This document shows, in pieces, positions 1 through 40,447 of a DNA stretch of 41,019 nt. Each line of letters starts with the position of its first letter. The stretch's first letter is position 1. The stretch spans positions 1 to 41,019 of the IMG/VR virus record IMGVR_UViG_3300020463_001175; one strand, 5' to 3'. The DNA is from a virus. The position numbers and the translations under genes were made by a program. The notes below the pieces were generated by a model. That model was not told the DNA's origin. It saw only the letters and a list, made by a program, of their open reading frames with translations, and did no database searches.

Positions 1-955
1 TATTTTTACCATTTGGTAATTTCAAGTCAGCATCAAACTTTACTTTTTTAATTTCTTTATGTGCAGATTCAGCCATTTTTGTCAATTCTCTCTCCGTAGC
101 TGGTTGTTCAAAATATTGTTTTAAATTTTTAGCAGTTCTTTCAAACTTATGATCTTTATGTTTAAATCCTACACCACCTGATGCTTCCCACTTACTAACG
201 TTCTGACCAAAGTCATCAATCAGTATGTTTGGAGTGCCATCTGAATTTTTAGCATACTTGCTTTTTTGTGCAGTAATAATTACTTCTTTTGGTGGAAATG
301 CTTTTAGGTTCTTTTCAACCCATTCTTTTTTACTAGGTTCTACTCTAGGATCATCAGCCATTGGTGCTGAAAGTATAGAGTACTCACCTTTAATATCTTT
401 AATAATAGATAGTAAGTTATCTGCATTAGAAGTAGGTTTTAAATTAATCCAAAAGTCTTTTGTATCTCTAATCTTTTGTAGTGCGGCATCTACGTCTTTA
501 ATTTCTTTCCAATCGCTTACGCCCATCATCTTAGTCCATGGACCAAAGAAGTCTACAAGAACTCCGTCCATGTCAACGTATATTTTACTTGCACTTGATA
601 ATTCTGTTTCGTCCTCGTTAGCTTTGTTATTGCCTTTGTTCTTAAAGTCAAACCTGTTGTTAGGTCCTTTTCCTGCTTTATGTACTAAACCCATTGGCTT
701 AATAGTTTGAGGCATAATCTTCCATTCGTTCCATATTTCTTTCCTAGACTCTGCCATGCCCAAATTAAATAATGTATTTGGGTCACTGTTTTTATGAGCC
801 TTCTTGTGCATATTATATACTGGAACTCCTTTTTTGTCAACCTTTAATCCTAGTTTGGCCGCTTGTTTCTTGATTTCGTCAGGACCTACGTCTGGTGTAG
901 TGTTAACACCCGGTACAATTAATCCAACACCTTCGTAGAGTTGACGTAGCTTCAT
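1..955 (-). CDS. HAD-family 5'(3')-nucleotidase-like enzyme, C-terminus cut by window edge
   Basis: The reading frame starts at ATG 955 and runs open off the left edge (318 codons visible). Residues 125-135 carry the HAD motif I, VDMDGVLVDF, with Asp128 and Asp130 as expected nucleophile and acid/base. Later come a motif II-like region (YSILSAP), a Lys-containing stretch (KSKYAK) and an acidic motif IV (LIDDFG). This order matches the deoxyribonucleotidase (NT5C-like) branch, which dephosphorylates nucleoside monophosphates. About 120 extra residues precede the catalytic domain. They begin with MKLRQLYEG, which resembles a T4 capsid-targeting leader with an LYE|G cleavage site. The start overlaps the stop of the preceding gene (ATGA), so translation is probably coupled. 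Substrate is not determinable; HAD membership is fairly sure. Confidence 0.75.
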   Translation of the reverse strand, partial: MKLRQLYEGVGLIVPGVNTTPDVGPDEIKKQAAKLGLKVDKKGVPVYNMHKKAHKNSDPNTLFNLGMAESRKEIWNEWKIMPQTIKPMGLVHKAGKGPNNRFDFKNKGNNKANEDETELSSASKIYVDMDGVLVDFFGPWTKMMGVSDWKEIKDVDAALQKIRDTKDFWINLKPTSNADNLLSIIKDIKGEYSILSAPMADDPRVEPSKKEWVEKNLKAFPPKEVIITAQKSKYAKNSDGTPNILIDDFGQNVSKWEASGGVGFKHKDHKFERTAKNLKQYFEQPATERELTKMAESAHKEIKKVKFDADLKLPNGKN

Positions 956-1173
956 TTCTTTTTTCTTCCTCTAAAACTAGGAACACCAGTCATATAAGGT
1001 TTACCAAACCAAAGTTTAAACCAATCCTTGTCGCCTGGCTTAACACCAAGTTTCTTTTCCTTGGCTTTTAAGGCAGTTGCAGTTATGCTTGGATTCTCAT
1101 CTACCTTATACTCGGTATATCCTTTGAACTCTCCAATACCTGCTAGTTTCTGTAATCTCTTTATATCGTCCAT
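952..1173 (-). CDS. Small basic protein of unknown function (73 aa)
   Basis: I do not recognise a function. The protein starts MDDIKRLQKLAGI, an N-terminal pattern I recall from other short marine T4-like phage proteins, and ends in a basic tail (SFRGRKKK). It is Lys-rich and has no membrane segment. The start codon shares a base with the stop of the nucleotidyltransferase gene upstream (TAATG), and its own stop overlaps the nucleotidase start (ATGA). It is therefore translated within the late operon that starts near 2923. The coupling and late promoter suggest a role in virion assembly or co-packaging, but that is inference. Confidence 0.6.
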   Translation of the reverse strand: MDDIKRLQKLAGIGEFKGYTEYKVDENPSITATALKAKEKKLGVKPGDKDWFKLWFGKPYMTGVPSFRGRKKK

Positions 1174-2201
1174 TACTTCTTCTTGCCGCTTTTCATATTA
1201 GCACACCAGTGATACATCTTTGCTTTTTCACCTGATGCCTTTTTTGCTTTTGCTCTTAAACTTGTTACTGATCCGTTACAACTAGCACCTGACTTTTTTA
1301 CTCTACCTGGTCTGCTTTTACCTTTTTTTTTACCGTCTGCAAAGTTTTCATCTTGCTTGTACGTAAATTTAAAGTTTAAATTCTTAAAAAGATTTACAGT
1401 TGTCTTTGCACTTCTTAAAGCCTTTTGCATAAGCTCTTGTTCGTCTTCTGATCTTTCATCATAAAAACGTAAAAATTTGTTTGCTTCAGATGGTTCAATA
1501 TAAACTTTACCACCTACACTTATTTCATTTGAATCTGCATTCCAACTTAATGGAAAGGGTTTGCCGTCACTTCTACTTGCTATGTTATTAAGTACATCTA
1601 GTTTAGGTTTCTGTTGTTTAACTACTAGCTCATCTAGGTTTTCTTGTACACCCATACCAGCCTTAACTTTAGTAAACATCATCTGTGCTAGTTTCTCATC
1701 TCCAGCAACACCTTGTTTGAAAGTTTCAAAATCATCTTCAGCGGCCGCGGCTTTCATTTTACTTGCACTCATTCCTTCTGCACCTTCGGCATCAGGATCA
1801 CGTTGACCTGCACTTACAATATTAATGCTGTCAAAGTTATAATCTTTTCCATTGTAATCATTTAAAAGTTTTGTAAAGCTATCAACTCTATCACTACCAG
1901 CTACATAAATTATATCTGTGTAACCTTTTGCTTCTAAACTTTTCATAGCATCGATAATAGTTCTTACTTTATTATCACCAATAGTAACACCACTAAAACT
2001 TTTTTGTGCAAAGAATACTTTTTCTGCAAATGACAAAGGATCGGTCTTAGGTTTTTGTGTATGTGTTAAGAATAGAAAAGGTTCGCCTTGTTGACCTTTT
2101 ATTACGTCAACTAATTTTGCGTGTCCTATAGTAGGTGGGTTCATTCGCCCAAAGGCAAATACGGCAGTCTTAGAAGCTTCGAATAGCTCTCGCAGAAACA
2201 C
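1173..2201 (-). CDS. Nucleotidyltransferase (cytidylyl/NMN-adenylyltransferase fold) with basic Cys-containing C-terminal domain
   Basis: The N-terminal domain has the nucleotidyltransferase signature FGRMNPPTIGH at residues 17-27, with the (T/H)xGH nucleotide-binding motif, and later an SASKMK segment in place of the usual ISST/R motif. Such enzymes transfer NMP from NTP to a phosphorylated acceptor; the acceptor here is unknown. The last ~50 residues form a separate Lys/Cys-rich module (SGASCNGSV, MYHWCANMKSGKKK) that I recognise as the small DUF5872-type phage domain. The start is GTG at 2201 inside TAGTG, coupled to the upstream gene. The first nine residues, MFLRELFEA, look like a capsid-targeting leader with an LFE|A prohead-protease site. 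Fold assignment is good; packaging is inference. Confidence 0.8.
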   Translation of the reverse strand: MFLRELFEASKTAVFAFGRMNPPTIGHAKLVDVIKGQQGEPFLFLTHTQKPKTDPLSFAEKVFFAQKSFSGVTIGDNKVRTIIDAMKSLEAKGYTDIIYVAGSDRVDSFTKLLNDYNGKDYNFDSINIVSAGQRDPDAEGAEGMSASKMKAAAAEDDFETFKQGVAGDEKLAQMMFTKVKAGMGVQENLDELVVKQQKPKLDVLNNIASRSDGKPFPLSWNADSNEISVGGKVYIEPSEANKFLRFYDERSEDEQELMQKALRSAKTTVNLFKNLNFKFTYKQDENFADGKKKGKSRPGRVKKSGASCNGSVTSLRAKAKKASGEKAKMYHWCANMKSGKKK

Positions 2202-2539
2202 TAGTACTCTCCATCTCTAATCATCTCCATTTCGTCACCATATATCTTTTCGATGATCGCTGTTTTGTCATCGTCACTTAAAAGTTCTTCTGGTCTTTTT
2301 GGGATATCATACTTTGAGCAATAATGTTGACAGGCTTTCTCAATCATTGGCCCCATGTGTTGCATTTGATCAATTGGCTCGCCTTTTTTAAGTTTATCCT
2401 GCATAGTTGCCATTGTTGGATAATACATTTTACGATAGAAGATAGGATCGTTTCTCATGTGTTGACATAAGTCTTCAACAACATTGAATCCTAAATCTTG
2501 TTCGTATTTGTCTTCAGAAAATTCAACTAGCTTTACCAT
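2201..2539 (-). CDS. Conserved-looking acidic phage protein, function unknown (112 aa)
   Basis: No recognised domain. The sequence is soluble, predicted helical and rich in Met, Asp and Glu, with Cys/His residues (DLCQHM, ACQHYCSKY) that could bind metal but form no clear motif. It overlaps the preceding gene by 7 bases and the following one by one base (TAGTG), so it sits firmly in the late operon. It lacks the capsid-leader pattern of its neighbours. A scaffold or virion-assembly role is possible from context only. Confidence 0.6.
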   Translation of the reverse strand: MVKLVEFSEDKYEQDLGFNVVEDLCQHMRNDPIFYRKMYYPTMATMQDKLKKGEPIDQMQHMGPMIEKACQHYCSKYDIPKRPEELLSDDDKTAIIEKIYGDEMEMIRDGEY

Positions 2540-2907
2540 TTACGACAACTCCAATATCTTGCTTTTGTTCTTGGTCCTGGATTATCGCAGTTGTGTCTAG
2601 CTCTAAAGCTTCTGCGTCTTGCAGGGTTTGATTTTTTGATTCTCATATTAGGATCACCAAAGTTTACTTTTTTAACATTTTTAGTTTTTGGATCTTTGAC
2701 GTATACTTTAAACTTCTTGACATCGCCTTGCATTGGCTTTCCAAGTTTTACTTTACGTCCTTGGTATTCAGCTTCGTCTATGATCTCGTCTTCGTTAAAC
2801 CACATATCACCATATGCAATATAAAAATCATCACCGTCGTAAGTTTCTTCAACCCAGCGGTTTTGTTCCTCTGTTTCTTTTAAATAATCAGTAAATGTTT
2901 TAGACAT
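2533..2907 (-). CDS. Late basic protein with capsid-targeting-like leader and Cys-rich basic C-terminus
   Basis: The protein (124 aa) begins MSKTFTDYLKET. This resembles the T4 internal-protein leader, an MKTYQEF-type segment followed by xxE|, although Thr rather than Ala/Gly/Ser follows the Glu. The C-terminal 35 residues are very basic with two cysteines (RRRSFRARHNC and ARYWSCRKW), a tail I recall from several marine T4-like phage proteins. The middle is acidic at first, then Lys-rich beta-like sequence. It is the first gene after a late promoter at 2929-2936, with a good Shine-Dalgarno (AGGAG). Function is unknown. DNA binding in the capsid is a reasonable inference from charge. Confidence 0.65.
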   Translation of the reverse strand: MSKTFTDYLKETEEQNRWVEETYDGDDFYIAYGDMWFNEDEIIDEAEYQGRKVKLGKPMQGDVKKFKVYVKDPKTKNVKKVNFGDPNMRIKKSNPARRRSFRARHNCDNPGPRTKARYWSCRKW

Positions 2908-2928
2908 AGAATACTCCTGTACTAAGAG

Positions 2929-2936
2929 TATTTATC
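2929..2936 (-). promoter_or_regulatory. T4-type late promoter GATAAATA
   Basis: Reads GATAAATA on the minus strand. By T4 rules (-13 to -6) transcription would start at 2923, giving a 16-nt leader with AGGAG before the ATG at 2907. It would drive the 2907-to-1 operon. Confidence 0.7.
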
Positions 2937-3735: not shown

Positions 3736-4389
3736 TTACTTATCTTTGTAAACTAGCCTATCGATCCTCATGATATTGTTATGTAAGAACAATCTAACTA
3801 TGGTAAGTATCTTGTCATCTTTTACATACAAGTACTTTCCTTTTAGATCTCTACCTAGTTGTAAATCACGTATAAGCCTATCACCTGCTTTAACTTTACT
3901 ATTGTTTTTTAGACAATAATCTGCAAAGTTTCTATCAGCTGTTCCGTTTAAGTTTATCTTGTAATTATATTCTGAAGGCTTATCTAAGTAAATTGTGTTT
4001 TTTTCTAGGGTATCTACTGTTGGTTCCCATAACCAAGGAACATCATTAATCTTCTTTGAAATCTTCTTAAGCCAATCGATATCATTAGAATATATACCAA
4101 GTCTTGATCCTTCACATCTTAACATAAAGTCTACATCATCTTGGAAAGCATTTACGAGTATCTTAAGATCTTCAAAGTCTTTAGATTCTATCTCTTGTTC
4201 TTTTTGAGACCACCTATGCATTTTGAAAGTTAATGGTTCACCGTGACTAGACTTACGTTGCAGTTGATCTATAATAACTCTAGCATTGTCAAGACGTTTG
4301 TTTCTAAAGATATGTGTGCCAGAATTATACACACCTAGCTTATAAGCATACTTGTCCCAGAAGAGTTTATTAGTTTGTCTTTTGATCAA
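3736..4389 (-). CDS. Protein of unknown function downstream of ClpA (217 aa)
   Basis: No domain recognised. It is a charged, soluble protein with a mixed alpha/beta appearance and basic segments (DRLIRDLQLGRDLKGKYLYVKDD). The start codon lies inside the end of the ClpA-like gene (20-base overlap), so it is translationally coupled to the chaperone operon and might act as an adaptor or substrate-selecting partner of that unfoldase. That idea rests on gene order alone. It is followed directly by the 52-aa gene whose promoter-like box overlaps this stop codon. Confidence 0.6.
   Translation of the reverse strand: MIKRQTNKLFWDKYAYKLGVYNSGTHIFRNKRLDNARVIIDQLQRKSSHGEPLTFKMHRWSQKEQEIESKDFEDLKILVNAFQDDVDFMLRCEGSRLGIYSNDIDWLKKISKKINDVPWLWEPTVDTLEKNTIYLDKPSEYNYKINLNGTADRNFADYCLKNNSKVKAGDRLIRDLQLGRDLKGKYLYVKDDKILTIVRLFLHNNIMRIDRLVYKDK
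3737..3744 (-). promoter_or_regulatory. Late-promoter variant GATAAGTA, predicted leaderless start at 3731
   Basis: Reads GATAAGTA on the minus strand and overlaps the stop of the 217-aa gene. Predicted +1 is 3731, the A of the ATG. No Shine-Dalgarno is present. Confidence 0.45.
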
Positions 4390-6628
4390 CTTTCTCTCGC
4401 TCCTTAACTTTGGTATTTAATACAAATTCTTTTTCTTTAATATCTATATTTAAAGTACCACCATCTTTTAAGTCACCAAACAAGAGTTTTTTGGATAAAG
4501 GTGTCTTGATATCTCTATCAATTACACGTTGTAAAGGTCTTGCACCCATCTTAGCATCAAAGCCTTTGTCAACTAGTAAGTCAATAGCACTATCAGATAC
4601 AGTAGTTGTAACACCTTTCTCTGTAAGCATATTTTTTAGTTCTAGTAAGAACTTGCCAACAATCTTGATCATAGTATTCTTTTCAAGTTTGTTAAATGTC
4701 ATTGTTCCGTCTAATCTATTTCTAAATTCAGGTGCAAAGAATTTCTTAAGTTCTTTATCTTCGTATTCTTTTTCCATTTCACCAAAGCCAATAGCATTAG
4801 TTTCAGCTTCTTGTGAACCTAAGTTAGTAGTTAGGATTAAAACAATATTTCTACAGTCGGCTGTCTTACCATTAGATCCAGTAACAAATCCATTGTCCAT
4901 AATTTGTAGTAATAATGAACTTACGTCAGGATGTGACTTTTCAATTTCATCTAATAATAGTACACAGTTAGGATGTTCTTGTAATTTAGTAATTAACAAT
5001 CCTGCATTTTCTTCAAAGCCAACATAGCCCGGAGGAGAACCAATTAGTTTTGATACAGAATGTTTCTCTTGGTATTCTGACATATCAAATCTAACAAGTT
5101 TTACACCAAGTTGTTTGGATAGTTGTCTAGCAGTTTCAGTTTTACCAACACCTGTTGGACCCATAAACACAAACGACCCAATTGGTTTGTTTTCTGCTTT
5201 AAGTCCTGCTTGAGCAACAAGTATCTTATCAACTATTTGATCTACTGCTTTATCTTGACCGTATATTTCGCCTTTTAGATTCTTTTCTAAGTTAGCAAGG
5301 TTGCTTGATTCTTTTTCTTTAACTGTTTCCTCTGGCAAGTTAACTGCTTTAGAAAGTTCAAATTGTATTTCTTCTTCAGTAATAACTTTCTCTGCCTTAG
5401 GATCTTTTAAATTAAATCTTGAACAAGCACAGTCAATCAAATCAATTGCTTTATCAGGAAGTTTCTTATCTGACTGATACTTAACACTTAATTTAATCGC
5501 ACTTTCAATAGCTTCTTCTGTAATAGTTGTCTTATGAAACTCTTCGTAATACTTTTTAATACCTAATAAGATATCTTTTGTCATCTCTTTACTAGGCTCG
5601 TCTACAGTTACTCTAGCAAATCTACGCATCAATGCTCTATCTTTTTCAAAATACTTTCTGTATTCTTCCCAAGTAGTTGATGCAACGACTTTAATATTAC
5701 CTTTAGTTAATACAGGCTTTAACATATTAGCAAGATCGTTGGAACTTTGTCCACCACCTGCACCTGCACCATTCATCATATGTGCTTCATCAATAAACAC
5801 GATAGTTTTACCACGTTTCTTAAGAGCGGCCATAACTAATTTAAAACGTTCTTCAAAGTCTCCTCTGTATTTAGAACCTGCTAACATTGATCCAATGTCT
5901 AAGTTGTAAACACTATACTCTTTTAGAAACTCTGGTACTGTTTTATTAACGATGTTCCAGGCAAGGCCTTCAGCAATAGCTGTTTTACCTACACCTGGAT
6001 CACCTACTAGCAACACGTTATTCTTTGCACGTCTACCTAAGGCAAGTGCAATAGAATCTAATTCGTCTATTCGTCCTATAACAGGATCTATTTTTCCTTG
6101 ATCAACTTCAGCATTAAGATTAGTTGTAAATGAACGTAAAGCTCTAGTAGCCATACCTGCCATTTCCTCATCTTCATAGTTGTCAGCCATCTCATTGTTA
6201 AGATAGTCAGCAAACTTATCCTTATCGATATTAGTTTTTGCAATATGATAGTATGACCAGCTTTTCTTTTCATTCATGATGCTTAAGAAAACATCTGAAC
6301 AATCAATATGGCTTCTACCACTAAACAATACTTGAGTAAATGCCCTATTCAACACTCTTTCTACTGCGTGTGTTTTCTTAGGCTTATACTTTTTAGCTAC
6401 TGCTGGATCCATCTGAATTTTTTCAGTCTGTGTCTTTAGATAGTTCTCAACATTCTTTTTAAGGAACTCTGGATCTGCTCCATATCCTTCTATAATTTTA
6501 GCAAATGAGGCCTCACAAAGCATAGCAAATAATAAATGCTCAAGGGTAACGTACTCATGCTGTAGCTTCTTAGCTACATCAACTGCTTTATCAAATACTA
6601 ACTGTAACTGTTCGCTCGGTTCAACCAT
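4370..6628 (-). CDS. clpA: ClpA-like double AAA+ unfoldase with retained ClpP-docking loop
   Basis: 752 residues, close to E. coli ClpA and without the ClpB middle domain. Residues 1-150 are a Clp N-domain (VTLEHLLFAML). D1 has Walker A GDPGVGKT (209-216), pore loop KYRG near 253 and Walker B VFIDEAH (277-283). D2 has Walker A GPTGVGKT (490-497), pore loop GYVG near 534, LLLDEIEKSHPD near 557 and the arginine-finger region FAPEFRNRLD. An IGF tripeptide at 613-615 sits where ClpA/ClpX carry the ClpP-binding (L/I/V)G(F/L) loop, so docking on host ClpP is plausible. No ClpP gene is in the window. The gene overlaps peptide deformylase by 8 bases and the next gene by 20. Confidence 0.93.
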   Translation of the reverse strand: MVEPSEQLQLVFDKAVDVAKKLQHEYVTLEHLLFAMLCEASFAKIIEGYGADPEFLKKNVENYLKTQTEKIQMDPAVAKKYKPKKTHAVERVLNRAFTQVLFSGRSHIDCSDVFLSIMNEKKSWSYYHIAKTNIDKDKFADYLNNEMADNYEDEEMAGMATRALRSFTTNLNAEVDQGKIDPVIGRIDELDSIALALGRRAKNNVLLVGDPGVGKTAIAEGLAWNIVNKTVPEFLKEYSVYNLDIGSMLAGSKYRGDFEERFKLVMAALKKRGKTIVFIDEAHMMNGAGAGGGQSSNDLANMLKPVLTKGNIKVVASTTWEEYRKYFEKDRALMRRFARVTVDEPSKEMTKDILLGIKKYYEEFHKTTITEEAIESAIKLSVKYQSDKKLPDKAIDLIDCACSRFNLKDPKAEKVITEEEIQFELSKAVNLPEETVKEKESSNLANLEKNLKGEIYGQDKAVDQIVDKILVAQAGLKAENKPIGSFVFMGPTGVGKTETARQLSKQLGVKLVRFDMSEYQEKHSVSKLIGSPPGYVGFEENAGLLITKLQEHPNCVLLLDEIEKSHPDVSSLLLQIMDNGFVTGSNGKTADCRNIVLILTTNLGSQEAETNAIGFGEMEKEYEDKELKKFFAPEFRNRLDGTMTFNKLEKNTMIKIVGKFLLELKNMLTEKGVTTTVSDSAIDLLVDKGFDAKMGARPLQRVIDRDIKTPLSKKLLFGDLKDGGTLNIDIKEKEFVLNTKVKEREKVDQKTN

Positions 6629-7160
6629 ATAACTTTGTGTCCTTAACTTGTCTCGTAATCCGTTTCATTAATTTTTCCTGCTTTCTCTTAGCCATATCTA
6701 ATCTCAACTTACTTATTCTATCTATGTAGTTGATTCCGTATAGATGATCATATTCATGACCAAAGATTCTTGCATTCCAACCTTGTAACTCTATTGTACA
6801 CTCTTTTCCGCTAGAGTCAAGACACTCTGTTACCAATCCAACTGGTCTTTTAACTTTAAAGTACAATAAAGGAAAACTTAAACAACCTTCTTCGCCTTCT
6901 ATCATCTCCTCACTCACCGCAGTAATTTTAGGATTGATGATTGCAAATGGTTTGCCGTCCTCATAGTCTTTTAAACCTTCTGGTTTGATAATGAATATCT
7001 GTGAATCAAGTTCAACTTGATTAGCCGCTAATCCTACTCCTTGATTCTTGTCCATGATATCAATCATTTCAGATTCAATCTTTTTAGCGTCTTGTTTGTC
7101 AAAGTCAAAAGGTTTAACCTTTTTCTCTAACCAATCATTTGGGTGATATATCAATTTCAT
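6621..7160 (-). CDS. def: Peptide deformylase
   Basis: Removes the N-terminal formyl group from nascent proteins. All three family motifs are intact: GVGLAANQ (41-48), EGCLSFP (91-97, Cys93 metal ligand) and HEYDH (135-139, two His ligands and catalytic Glu136). 179 residues is ordinary length, slightly longer than many phage versions because of a basic C-terminal helix (KRKQEKLMKRITRQ). The ATG at 7160 lies within the end of dnaJ (26-base overlap), and the stop overlaps the clpA start, so the three are translated as a unit. Phage-encoded deformylases are known from marine myoviruses; their benefit may be faster processing of viral or organellar-type proteins. Confidence 0.95.
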   Translation of the reverse strand: MKLIYHPNDWLEKKVKPFDFDKQDAKKIESEMIDIMDKNQGVGLAANQVELDSQIFIIKPEGLKDYEDGKPFAIINPKITAVSEEMIEGEEGCLSFPLLYFKVKRPVGLVTECLDSSGKECTIELQGWNARIFGHEYDHLYGINYIDRISKLRLDMAKRKQEKLMKRITRQVKDTKLYG

Positions 7161-8001
7161 CTTTTATCTTTGCTAGTTTCTCTCTTGTTTGTTCATCATT
7201 AATCGTTGGCGTTATGCCTAATACCTTAACAAATAAGTTTCCCGTTTGTCCTGATCTTTGATCTGGTAATCCTTGTCCGCTTATACTAAAAGTTGTGTTG
7301 GAGTTTGTGCCTGATGGAACATTAACACTTAAGGTTCTTCCGTGTAATGTTTCTACTCTTATGTTTGTGCCTAATAACAAATCGAATACACTTACATTCC
7401 TTGTTATATATAAATTTATGCCTTCCACGTCATACTCGGGGTGCCTTTTGACTCTTACTTTAACCAATAAGTTTCCTCTTGGCACTTGTGGTACTTGGTC
7501 TCCGCCCATTCCTGGATAACGTATAGTGTCTCCTGGACGTACACCCTTAGGTAATGTTATGTTTACTGTTTGTTGTTTGCCACTTGGTAATCTAAAATTG
7601 GCAATTAGGTCTTTACCTTTTATAATATCTTCTAGTTCAATATCTGCGGCTATGGTTATATCTTGATTACGCATTTGCCTTTGTCTAAAAGGACTATTTG
7701 GCTGTGCAAATCCGTCGCCAAAGAATGTAGAAAAGATATCATTCATATCTCCGCCGTTGAAATGGAAAGTTGTACCGTTTTGTGAGAAGCCTTGTTGTTG
7801 TGGATCAGTAGTTCCAAACTGATCATACATCTGTCGCTTCTGTGGATCTTTTAATGCTGTGTAGGCTTCATTAACTTGTTTGAATTTGGACTCGTCACCC
7901 CCTCTGTCAGGGTGGTGTTGCATACTTTGTTTCTTATATGCTTTCTTTAATTCAGAGTCTGAAGCTGTTTTATCAACACCTAATATATTGTAATAGTCCA
8001 T
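7135..8001 (-). CDS. dnaJ: DnaJ-type co-chaperone lacking the zinc-finger domain
   Basis: The J-domain occupies residues 1-65 with the HPD tripeptide at 30-32, which stimulates DnaK ATPase. A Gly/Phe/Gln-rich linker follows (FHFNGGDMNDIF region), then the two C-terminal beta domains that hold substrate (LPSGKQQTVNITLPKG, VSVFDLLLG). No CxxCxGxG repeats are present, so it is type B (CbpA-like). 288 residues fits that class. The start is fixed by the J-domain (MDYYNILGV), yet no Shine-Dalgarno precedes it; instead a GATAAGTA box lies exactly 6 nt upstream. It heads the deformylase-ClpA operon and presumably works with host DnaK, since no phage DnaK is visible here. Confidence 0.93.
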   Translation of the reverse strand: MDYYNILGVDKTASDSELKKAYKKQSMQHHPDRGGDESKFKQVNEAYTALKDPQKRQMYDQFGTTDPQQQGFSQNGTTFHFNGGDMNDIFSTFFGDGFAQPNSPFRQRQMRNQDITIAADIELEDIIKGKDLIANFRLPSGKQQTVNITLPKGVRPGDTIRYPGMGGDQVPQVPRGNLLVKVRVKRHPEYDVEGINLYITRNVSVFDLLLGTNIRVETLHGRTLSVNVPSGTNSNTTFSISGQGLPDQRSGQTGNLFVKVLGITPTINDEQTREKLAKIKDEIDISPK

Positions 8002-25877: not shown

Positions 25878-27488
25878 CTATAAGTCCGTTTGATCATTAC
25901 CGCTAGTACCTCTAAATTTAAGAGGATTTGGACTGCTATAAGGCCAGTGTGCTACTCTGTTAGGAGCACCGTATAAACGTGGATAACTGTTACCATAGCT
26001 AAAACTTTCTGCTGTACCACTGTCATATGCTGTTGGTGTAGAATTTTGTGTTAAAAAGTTCTTAAACTGTGCCGCTGTACCGCCTGGGTTTGCTTGTAAC
26101 CATAATGCACCCATTCCACATATCTGTGGCGCCGCCATGCTAGTTCCACCAATCTTAGCCATGTAGTGTGTTGAACTTCCTGGATATAATTGTTTACTTC
26201 CGTATGCACTTACTTGGCTAGTTGCACTAGAAATATCATCACCTGCGGCAATAATATCTATCCTTGGTCCACGTTCACTATCTATTCTAACCTTTTCTTC
26301 ACTACCGTATTGTACCGTATCCATATTTGCAACAAATAAAGTATCTTCACTATGTGGTGAACTAGGACGATTGTAATAGAATCGATATGCTCCATAACTA
26401 GTTGCGGTGTAATAACTGTCATAGATACTACTTCCATATTGTCCTGTTGTTAGATACGCACAAGGGTGATATGCGTTACCGGCCGCCTTGACACAAATGA
26501 TTCCTGCATCAGTTAGCTGTTGTTGTTCTACGTCTGCTGAACTACTTTGTACAGGGTATTTACTATTAACCATTCCATAGTTTACAAATGCACTTGAAAA
26601 ATTTGCTGGTGTAATATTTTGAGCAACACCTTTGAAATAGATTTCTGATATTTGTCCATAAGTTGAATAGTTAGCAGAGTATCCCCAACTTTGATTTACA
26701 ATAGTAGGACGTCTAAATCCTGTGTTAGGATCAATAGGTTTTTTCAGATGCCATTCTCTGATAACATCATAAATGTCATTACCATTCATAGCACTTGTTC
26801 CACCGAAAACTCTTACTGAATATAGTTGTGCATTCTTGGCCCAACCGTAAGTTGCTCCAGCGGCAATACCACAACAATGACTACCGTGAGCACCTGCTCT
26901 ATTTGTATCCGAATAGTTGTTTGTATAGTGACCAGTTGGCATAGTTCCAGCAACACCTGATGCCGCATACCAATCTATTTGTTGAAATCTTGTTGTACCA
27001 TTATAATCATCCCATTCAGGATGTCCTGTAGGATCAACACCATCGTCTTGTATAACAATGTCAACACCTGTTCCATCTAATGTGTAATTATAATCTCCCA
27101 TGAAAGTCTGGTCTGCCGCTTGATCGGCTTGCCATTCTCTAAATATGTGTCTATACAATCCCCAATTCTTATCAGTTTGTTGATCAACTGTTGTTCTTTG
27201 GAAATTATCATTTTGTACTGCAAATAATTCTCTGTCGTTATCCTTGCTTGAAGGTTCAACGTCAAGTATTCTTCCATCAGCTTTTAATTTTTCTGCTTCT
27301 GCTGGTTCAAGCATATAACAAGTTATTCTATTGTTAGTTGCTTTTGCGTGTGAAACATCACAGGTTCTATCAGGAAAGACATTTGAGTCAACGCCAGCAT
27401 CACTGCTAGTATCTCTTTGTAAGTCGTAGTCTATTTCAGCTACGTCTATTCCTTTGTTTGTTATAACTCTAAATTCTTCTTGTGCCAT
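25878..27488 (-). CDS. Subtilisin-like serine protease (S8), full triad
   Basis: 536 residues. An N-terminal ~130-residue segment (EEFRVITNKGIDVAEIDYDL) resembles an inhibitor-like prodomain. The catalytic domain has Asp148 in VIQDDGVD, His201 in GAHGSHCCG, oxyanion Asn338 in KAAGNAY and Ser450 in GGTSMAAP, so it should be active. There is no signal peptide; in the fibre locus, it could be a virion-associated protease that matures fibres or cuts host surface proteins. It is coupled by a one-base overlap to its upstream paralogue. Confidence 0.9.
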   Translation of the reverse strand: MAQEEFRVITNKGIDVAEIDYDLQRDTSSDAGVDSNVFPDRTCDVSHAKATNNRITCYMLEPAEAEKLKADGRILDVEPSSKDNDRELFAVQNDNFQRTTVDQQTDKNWGLYRHIFREWQADQAADQTFMGDYNYTLDGTGVDIVIQDDGVDPTGHPEWDDYNGTTRFQQIDWYAASGVAGTMPTGHYTNNYSDTNRAGAHGSHCCGIAAGATYGWAKNAQLYSVRVFGGTSAMNGNDIYDVIREWHLKKPIDPNTGFRRPTIVNQSWGYSANYSTYGQISEIYFKGVAQNITPANFSSAFVNYGMVNSKYPVQSSSADVEQQQLTDAGIICVKAAGNAYHPCAYLTTGQYGSSIYDSYYTATSYGAYRFYYNRPSSPHSEDTLFVANMDTVQYGSEEKVRIDSERGPRIDIIAAGDDISSATSQVSAYGSKQLYPGSSTHYMAKIGGTSMAAPQICGMGALWLQANPGGTAAQFKNFLTQNSTPTAYDSGTAESFSYGNSYPRLYGAPNRVAHWPYSSPNPLKFRGTSGNDQTDL

Positions 27489-29029
27489 TAGTTACCACTC
27501 GCTTTAAATCCTGTTGGACCTGTTGTGTCTAAACCTTTTTTCTTACTAAACGTTTTACTCTTATCTAAGTTTCCAAAGAATGCAATTCTATTTGAAGTTG
27601 CATCTGGACTCATCAAGTTTCTGGTATTGTTAAAGAAGTTAGATGGTGTACTTTCATCTGTTGAACCTTGATATAATAATCCTTTGATACTATTCTTATG
27701 CCACCAGTTACGTAATTGTGATGGAGTATACCCTGGATTAAGTTGTAATACCAAACAACTCATTCCTGCTACATTAGGAGTACTCATTGATGTTCCACTA
27801 AGATTTAATATTGCAGTACTGTTAGTATTATGGGCACTAACAATATTCGTACCTGCCGCATAAACATCTACTCTTGGTCCCTTATCACTTGAACTTGAAC
27901 AGGCTTCTGAACTTGAATATAATGCACTATCTAAGTTACCACAAACAATAGTGTCTGGACCAATGTTACCTGCACCTCTGTTATAGTATATAGGATTACC
28001 TGCTGTGATATTTCCTGAGTTAATACTTCTTGTAATATAGTTGTTATAGTCCACATCACCTGAGTAACAAAGTTTTTGTCCTTGGTTACCTGCACTCTTA
28101 TGATAGTGTACACCTTCGTCTTGCATTTCTTCTACTTCTGCCATCAAGTTGTAAATCTGTGCATTAAATCTATTTGAACCATCTCCAATCATTCCGTATT
28201 GTGATTGTTTTACAGAACCAACACTTGATCCTCTAAAGTTTATATCAGTGATACTTGAGAAGTAACTTTTATATCCCCAACTAGCACTTACCACTGTTGG
28301 TCTCTTATGTCCTGTAATTGGATTAACAGTTTTTGCTTTGTGAAATTCTTTGATAGCATCAAACCAATAGCTTGAGTTTACTGTATTCATATCCAAACAA
28401 AATATGTTTGCGTTCTTGGCCCAACCATAAGTCTTGCCAACTGCTGTTCCGGCACAGTGAGTTGCATGGTAGCTAGAACCACTGACATTGGTATAGTCTA
28501 ATGTTGATATTGCGGAACAGTTAGGAAGTGTGTTCCATTGAAACTGTTGTAAGCGACTGTTACCGTTCTTGTCTTGCCATTCTTCGTGATCGTATCTAAA
28601 TTTTGTTTCTTGGTGTATGTAATCAATACCACTACCATCTAAATGATAATCATGTGATCCGCCTATGTCACTTGTAACATTAGTACCCCATTCATTTGTT
28701 GTTGCCGAGTGTCTCTTGAAACCCCAATTATCTCTTGATGTTCCTGTACTGTTTCTAATAAACGTTCCAGGCTGTTCGTAGTCTAACCATTCATCGTCCC
28801 ATACTAAAGGTTCGTTCACACCACCTACTCTTGAGTCACTCATCAATGTAGTTGCTTCTTCATCTGTAAGAGAAACTTCTAACATTCTTTTACTGCTTGG
28901 TCTTGCGTTTACTGTTGAAACTTCTCTGTCAGGAATGTCAGTAATAGATGTAGAAGTATTCAGTTCATTTAAGAACTGTTCCTTGTCTACCCCTTTATGT
29001 AATGAAACAACGTAATGTTTTTCTGACAT
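27488..29029 (-). CDS. Subtilisin-like paralogue with altered catalytic Asp
   Basis: 513 residues, homologous to the downstream protease throughout (LDGSGIDYIHQ against LDGTGVDIVIQ; KTYGWAKNANIF against ATYGWAKNAQLY). His188 in SYHATHCAGT, Asn315 in KSAGNQG and Ser414 in SGTSMSTP are kept. The Asp motif is HQETKF where the paralogue has IQDDGVD, putting Glu141 at the catalytic Asp position and losing the following Gly. It may be slow, inactive or a structural partner of the active copy. The N-terminal prodomain-like part is present (YVVSLHKGVDKEQFL). The start at 29029 has AGGGG before it. Confidence 0.85.
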   Translation of the reverse strand: MSEKHYVVSLHKGVDKEQFLNELNTSTSITDIPDREVSTVNARPSSKRMLEVSLTDEEATTLMSDSRVGGVNEPLVWDDEWLDYEQPGTFIRNSTGTSRDNWGFKRHSATTNEWGTNVTSDIGGSHDYHLDGSGIDYIHQETKFRYDHEEWQDKNGNSRLQQFQWNTLPNCSAISTLDYTNVSGSSYHATHCAGTAVGKTYGWAKNANIFCLDMNTVNSSYWFDAIKEFHKAKTVNPITGHKRPTVVSASWGYKSYFSSITDINFRGSSVGSVKQSQYGMIGDGSNRFNAQIYNLMAEVEEMQDEGVHYHKSAGNQGQKLCYSGDVDYNNYITRSINSGNITAGNPIYYNRGAGNIGPDTIVCGNLDSALYSSSEACSSSSDKGPRVDVYAAGTNIVSAHNTNSTAILNLSGTSMSTPNVAGMSCLVLQLNPGYTPSQLRNWWHKNSIKGLLYQGSTDESTPSNFFNNTRNLMSPDATSNRIAFFGNLDKSKTFSKKKGLDTTGPTGFKASGN

Positions 29030-39895: not shown

Positions 39896-40447
39896 TTATA
39901 TTGATTGTAGTCTGTTATTAATAACTTCCCAGTTAATTAACTTCATCGTGCTAGTGAGATATTTCTTTTTGCACCCTTTACCTTCTTTGGTATAATCTGA
40001 AAATGAATGTTCCCACATATCCACAGGCATCAGTATATCTGATTTGAAAGATTGGTTTGGTGTTGTTTTAAGTTCGCCTTTCTTAGAAAGATAAACCCAA
40101 CCCGATCCTTGTATGCCCATAGCAGTTTTAACAAGCTCTTCTTGGAAATTTTTATAATCACTAAATTTGTCTTTAATAAGTTCCAAAATTGAACCTGTAG
40201 GTGTATTAGTTCCTGTTGGTTTCTTTAATTGTGTCCACCATAAATTATGTAGCTTTGCACCACCATAATTAAATTTAGGATCTCCTTCACCTGCATTGTA
40301 TCTATCTACATATCCTTTTGACAGAACATTGTAATGATAGTCTACGTTCTCCTTTGATAATATAGGAGCCAAGTCACCTATTGAATACGGTAACTTCTCT
40401 AGAGTTAGTGATTGCTCTTTGGCTTCTAATAGTTCTCTTATTATCAT
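39896..40447 (-). CDS. sod: Fe/Mn superoxide dismutase with capsid-targeting-like leader
   Basis: 183 residues of the Fe/Mn SOD family, converting superoxide to oxygen and hydrogen peroxide. All four metal ligands can be placed: His38 (VDYHYN), His67 (GGAKLHNLWW), Asp143 and His147 (PVDMWEHSF). LPYSIGDLAPILS is the typical start of the fold. Ahead of it are ~15 extra residues beginning MIIRELLEA, a T4-like capsid leader with an LLE|A cleavage site. The ATG has no Shine-Dalgarno but lies 6 nt after a GCTAAATA late-like box, implying late expression, consistent with packaging. No secretion signal. Confidence 0.92.
   Translation of the reverse strand: MIIRELLEAKEQSLTLEKLPYSIGDLAPILSKENVDYHYNVLSKGYVDRYNAGEGDPKFNYGGAKLHNLWWTQLKKPTGTNTPTGSILELIKDKFSDYKNFQEELVKTAMGIQGSGWVYLSKKGELKTTPNQSFKSDILMPVDMWEHSFSDYTKEGKGCKKKYLTSTMKLINWEVINNRLQSI

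Follow-up and report, generated by a model that had tools for sequence, protein, structure and literature searches.

Why should unrelated enzymes of one virus begin with almost the same short peptide? The question is raised by IMG/VR virus record IMGVR_UViG_3300020463_001175, a 41-kb fragment whose gene content is that of a marine T4-like phage; by the window we mean all 41,019 nucleotides of it, and the leaders, folds, modules and promoter-like element located in it below all lie on its minus strand. Three of its enzymes share an N-terminal leader with a glutamate at residue 8 (the E8 subtype; arrows mark the predicted cut). These are MKLRQLYE↓G (932..955) in an NT5C-type 5'(3')-deoxyribonucleotidase, which has an ATG start at 955 and a frame open past the left end of the window, and whose family alignment shows a nearly invariant E8; MFLRELFE↓A (2178..2201, GTG start at 2201) in an NMNAT/cytidyltransferase-like nucleotidyltransferase; and MIIRELLE↓A (40424..40447, ATG start at 40447) in an Fe/Mn superoxide dismutase (SOD). 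A fourth, small protein with no function assigned by fold starts with ATG at 2907 and bears a leader of the T4 internal-protein type, MSKTFTDYLKE↓T (2875..2907), which reads MSKTFKDYLKE, MTKTFKDYLLE, MTKTFKDYLKE↓A and MKNFKEYLSE↓S in its relatives. All four N-termini stand where a preliminary description of this DNA had placed them; the SOD gene falls beyond positions 1-2907, the interval given for that description. The folds are indeed unrelated, as it had claimed, judging from Pfam and PHROGs: the NT5C domain (residues ~120-284, 104..598) matches PF06941 (9e-7), the nucleotidyltransferase matches the cytidyltransferase PHROGs 3041 and 395 (6e-52 and 6e-40), and the SOD fold (39896..40423) matches PF02777 (7e-17) and PF00081 (3e-10). 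From sequence comparison, we propose that the leaders are probably T4-like capsid-targeting propeptides that are trimmed by the prohead protease gp21.

Leader tagging is real and wider than the preliminary description had stated. In the window, 3 of the 51 called genes begin with M-x-phi-x-x-phi-x-E (phi being hydrophobic) versus 0.21-0.26 predicted from internal positions of these window proteins (Poisson p ~0.001); hence, the observation of a shared leader stands. We then take a sample made up of 80 loci surrounding nucleotidyltransferase relatives, 30 surrounding SOD relatives and, in addition, six large viral contigs, with genes called by one simple caller and 1685 proteins left after dereplication. 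Across these, [LI]xE rises above its background of ~18.5 per position at residues 5, 8 and 9 alone (68, 67 and 46 occurrences), and the leader consensus is M-(K/R)-(L/I)-(R/K)-(E/D)-(L/I)-x-E-(D/A/G/S). Among 286 bacterial control proteins none has [LI]xE at residue 8 and one has the leader pattern, the E8 subtype of which also occurs once in 354 proteins of two cyanophages. Single-linkage clustering of the cargo was discarded, as modules chain proteins into one 621-member cluster, and coverage-limited clusters were used instead; the leader is present in 64 of 979 of these, being common to otherwise unrelated proteins as is the T4 capsid-targeting sequence. With one member per cluster there are 46 leaders versus 0.6 with shuffled N-termini (maximum 3 in 200 shuffles). 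Since this sample leans to the neighborhood of the query gene, the count was repeated around gp21 genes, giving 7/271 versus 0.11 expected. Among the distinct leaders of nucleotidyltransferases homologous to that of the window, 45 of 52 have (LIVMF)xE ahead of the fold. The short leader was not clearly seen on the SODs of the jumbo phages Paride and Vibrio 2.275.O, so that packaging of SOD would not be general, and a search of bacterial-genome SODs by peptide patterns found no relatives. We found no description of these leaders in the open literature on capsid targeting in cyanophages or pelagiphages.

In T4, the targeting signal of the internal protein IPIII is its first ten residues, with positions 4 and 7 acting in targeting and 8 and 10 in cutting, and the gp21 cleavage site is (L/I)xE (PMC9026906). 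The present leaders resemble the propeptides of the T4 internal proteins, Alt and gp24 in comprising 8-11 N-terminal residues with a Lys-rich start, two hydrophobics three apart and (L/I)xE followed by A, G or S. The T4 N-termini read MKTYQEFIAE↓A in IPIII, MKTFKEFTSTTTPVSTITE↓A in IPI and MAKINELLRE↓S in gp24, the arrows standing at what we take to be the individual cut positions. The match to T4 leaders that had been claimed for all four proteins holds for the 2907 leader, which is of near-exact T4 type with one extra residue. The E8 leaders are spaced differently, being two residues shorter than the internal-protein leader with its glutamate at residue 10, with their hydrophobics at 3 and 6; their closest T4 match is the gp24 N-terminus. 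T4 tags three small proteins plus Alt, whereas here many enzymes are tagged and internal sites are repeated.

Homologs with T4-type leaders have been detected in virions by others. Mass spectrometry identified members of the nucleotidyltransferase family in the virions of S-SM1 (PMC3037559), S-SCSM1 (PMC9602691) and S-CREM2 (PMC10665884); these begin with MKKFSAFLNE↓A, MKSFLQFLKE↓A and MKNFSSFLTE↓A, respectively. Four further virion proteins of S-CREM2, namely the S-adenosylmethionine hydrolase, the kinase and two hypothetical ones, likewise have the leaders MKDFDSFLEE, MKRFDAFLTE, MKDLHSFLTE and MQTFSMFFSE. Only the fixed-spacing T4 motif separates the virion proteins of S-CREM2 from the others (5/52 versus 1/167, p=0.003); a looser motif, (L/I)xE ending within residues 8-13, yields no such separation (p=0.17). 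S-CRM01 has a neighboring run of genes with T4-type leaders, and the nucleotidyltransferase homologs of GAP32 and Deifobo have no matching leader. As separate observations, the virion-detected gp12 of S-CREM2 (L174:7704-10313; 869 residues, annotated as Cas9, no Pfam match) has a T4-like leader, RFASFMAE↓A, inside its N-terminus, and g128 of S-CRM01 starts much like it. A module resembling MGL...G.G.W.D..G....KT..GKL.F seems to come after the leader on cyanophage kinases, nucleotidyltransferases and others, in leader proteins of S-SCSM1, S-CREM2, S-CRM01, S-N03 and S-PRM1.

The gp21-like protease implied by the capsid-targeting reading is present in large relatives. Peptidase_S77 scored above the cut-off in 4 of the 20 contigs tested (G002, G003, G005 and G006); these carry a gp20-gp21-gp22-gp23 head cluster with the gene order core, gp21, gp22 and capsid, the portal adjoining where called, and their gp21 aligns with that of T4, with the His and Ser blocks conserved. 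In two of them, a leader protein of 66-71 residues (MRYKELKE↓A, MKLFEFFE↓A) is encoded directly ahead of the core gene. The capsid proteins of 60/60 gp21 loci keep a site of the YLxE↓(S/T/A)..AGATSAGN type, which reads YLSE↓SATAGATSAGN in the large relatives and would correspond to T4 FLTE↓AEIGG. Leader proteins of 72-76 residues repeat this capsid-site peptide right behind the leader glutamate, e.g., MRIRDIISE↓VASAGATSAGNIATVANP. There is no Peptidase_S77 match in the window, a negative that carries little information because the window is a fragment and the control set is also without a match; no DNA overlap was found between the gp21 contigs and the window species.

Many leader proteins are chains of a leader, a module A, a variable cargo and a basic Cys tail that opens with E↓NFADG, and the cargo following module A differs by phage, including NT5C, Cu/Zn SOD (L066), ParB-like and other domains. 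In the window NT5C protein, module A (GVGLIVPGVNTTPDVG...TLFNLGMAE↓S, 749..931) ends at an (M/L)xE site; across its family the end reads FNLG(L/M/I)xE↓(S/G/D), and the similarity among relatives ceases at or just past the glutamate. An AlphaFold2 model of this protein (mean pLDDT 64) is disordered over residues 1-24 and 68-119, the latter being a linker that follows the low-confidence module A, and contains a confident NT5C domain (pLDDT mostly 83-93 as far as residue 260, lower beyond), for which Foldseek matched the mitochondrial deoxyribonucleotidase 4mwo (E 2.5e-5). In the L001 allele of this gene, MAE↓SRK and LVE↓SRK flank an inserted ParB-like module. The 639-residue protein at L066:7702-9621 runs from leader through module A and Cu/Zn SOD (E 3e-46) to the basic tail, and L015 and L063 have similar multi-domain leader proteins; the Cu/Zn SOD is thus embedded in a multi-module protein, whereas the Fe/Mn SOD of the window phage stands alone.

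The joints between these modules resemble cleavage sites. A hydrophobic residue occupies P3, the first position of hydrophobic-x-E, in 26/37 dissimilar contexts ahead of the ENFADG tail (p=4.5e-8) and in 10/10 ahead of the AEYQG module of the 2907 family (p=1.9e-6); no other position upstream of the joints is significantly raised. In the window, the AEYQG... module follows IIDE↓A in the 2907 protein (2536..2772), and the nucleotidyltransferase ends in the basic Cys tail NFADGKKKGKSRPGRVKK...YHWCANMKSGKKK (1176..1346), a module common to many cargo proteins; a Pfam OAR match on this tail fell under the cut-off and was dismissed as chance. The suggestion of the preliminary description that such basic tails could hold DNA is a guess. 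The small basic protein MDDIKRLQKLAGIGE↓F... (952..1173) belongs to a family with the glutamate after LAG(I/V)x in 29/37 distinct members. A second recurrent short motif, RLKxLAG(I/V)xE, is seen in it and in L019, L006, L015 and L063, at protein starts, ahead of modules or at the extreme protein end. Further, Tat-like signals occur just past (L/I/V)xE in L064:14101, L108:10528, L015:11688, L006:2443 and L106:10522, a small count of five proteins in about two families: three carry the signal internally (at residues 586, 506 and 185), and in the other two it begins at residue 10-11, directly behind the leader. A Tat signal works at the N-terminus; hence, these placements would be understandable for a chain that is cut.

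The enrichment of the leader, the virion-detected homologs, gp21 in relatives and the sites at module joints together lend good support to the capsid-targeting reading of the preliminary description, under which the following scheme would apply to the present phage. The leader would attach to gp22 and its partners in the prohead core, thereby enclosing the enzyme as the head assembles; a gp21-type protease would then cut behind the glutamate of (L/I/V)xE and release the enzyme, which could enter the host along with the DNA. With leader, small modules, enzyme domains and basic Cys tail joined at (hydrophobic)-x-E sites, the long products would behave as gp21-processed polyproteins. We lean slightly towards an extension of this scheme, in which leader-tagged cargo polyproteins of marine T4-like phages are cut in the prohead into individual enzymes and small basic modules; some of the pieces would expose a Tat signal once cut and not before, allowing periplasmic export by the host after injection.

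Could the leader instead target proteins to the head or some other phage assembly without being cut, its glutamate being part of a docking helix and the module joints merely resembling sites? Acidic residues are favored at leader position 5 too, as in an amphipathic docking helix; however, the pairing of hydrophobic P3 and glutamate is repeated in unrelated contexts where modules join inside the chains, the downstream peptide is identical to that of the putative gp23 maturation site and the Tat signals come after the sites, all of which make uncut docking unlikely. One tag on many unrelated enzymes could also be explained by docking to a complex in the infected cell, e.g., for replication or late transcription, with no relation to the virion. 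We regard this as quite improbable given the homologs reported from purified virions, the location of one small leader-bearing gene between the portal and core genes, and the lack of a leader on all those replication genes of S-CREM2 and HTVC008M that were inspected. A further alternative is hitchhiking, with leaders spreading through recombined gene starts as a DNA or translation-start element devoid of protein function. Modules clearly shuffle, as in the insertion at MAE↓SRK in L001 relative to the window, and Glu8 is mostly GAA (112/118 leaders), being more skewed than Glu5 (47/65). Yet the pattern is kept though leader DNA and amino acids differ, T4-type and E8-type leaders are both found on the same fold, and residue 6 uses every one of the six Leu codons, which points to selection on the protein and not the DNA; hitchhiking is hence very improbable.

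The codon skew at Glu8 also counts against capsid-targeting propeptides, as do several further points. Neither the window nor the tested same-species contigs, all of them incomplete fragments, yielded gp21. The published virion mass spectrometry covers homologs with T4-type leaders and no phage with the E8 subtype; in S-SCSM1 the motif occurs in 1/47 virion versus 1/225 other proteins, a weak result from too few leaders, and the authors of the S-CREM2 proteome state that the enzymes may be co-purified contaminants (PMC10665884). Some homologs are without a full site (HTVC008M, MKTLKELLRK; L069, MQLRELFNQ; L106-L108, MRATDLNTAV), and the tail boundary in the window has Q, which is not hydrophobic, at P3.

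The preliminary description had also predicted that all the leader genes are late. A T4-late-promoter-like GATAAATACTCT lies at 2925..2936; this T4-late-like GATAAATACT element stands 29 nt before the 2907 start and heads the 2907-to-1 gene run. Similar elements occur ahead of tail genes, and the 2907-to-1 run is hence probably late. None was seen directly upstream of the SOD gene, so that the prediction is sustained for the 2907 run alone. Directly upstream of the leader run, genes for a ClpA/B-like ATPase, a peptide deformylase and DnaJ stand in a row (4370-8001). Two adjacent subtilase-like genes, one confirmed by Pfam S8, lie in the tail-fiber region (25878-29029).

If correct, the capsid-targeting reading would supply a rule by which virion-borne enzymes could be predicted from sequence in a widespread ocean phage group. 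NT5C, SOD and NMNAT, usually listed as infection-time metabolic genes, would then be at work as early as the first minutes after the next host is infected. The reading would also give a reason why NMNAT and kinases of cyanophages, puzzlingly, turn up in virions, and it suggests that cargo polyproteins can be processed by a prohead protease. For the virion-associated NMNAT/cytidyltransferase and kinase of cyanophages, the enzyme is homologous and its virion detection is published; the accessible parts of those papers do not name the leader, and contamination is left open (PMC10665884). In the giant phages phiKZ and SPN3US, the head protease cuts after xxE and packaged inner-head proteins bear propeptides (PMC5694885), but these are mostly >100 residues long, have the motif (S/A)xE and are not modular enzyme sets, unlike the present ones. 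The polyvalent proteins of phages and conjugative elements are multi-domain, modular and predicted to be virion-packaged (Iyer et al. 2017, PMC5512222); the predicted cargo described here resembles them in its modularity, its several domains and its combination of ParB-like and enzyme domains. Polyvalent proteins are reportedly released by embedded peptidase domains (PMC5512222), whereas a Pfam scan of 47 leader proteins matched no peptidase family, and cutting at (L/I/V)xE in the present system would fall to gp21, a protease of its own.

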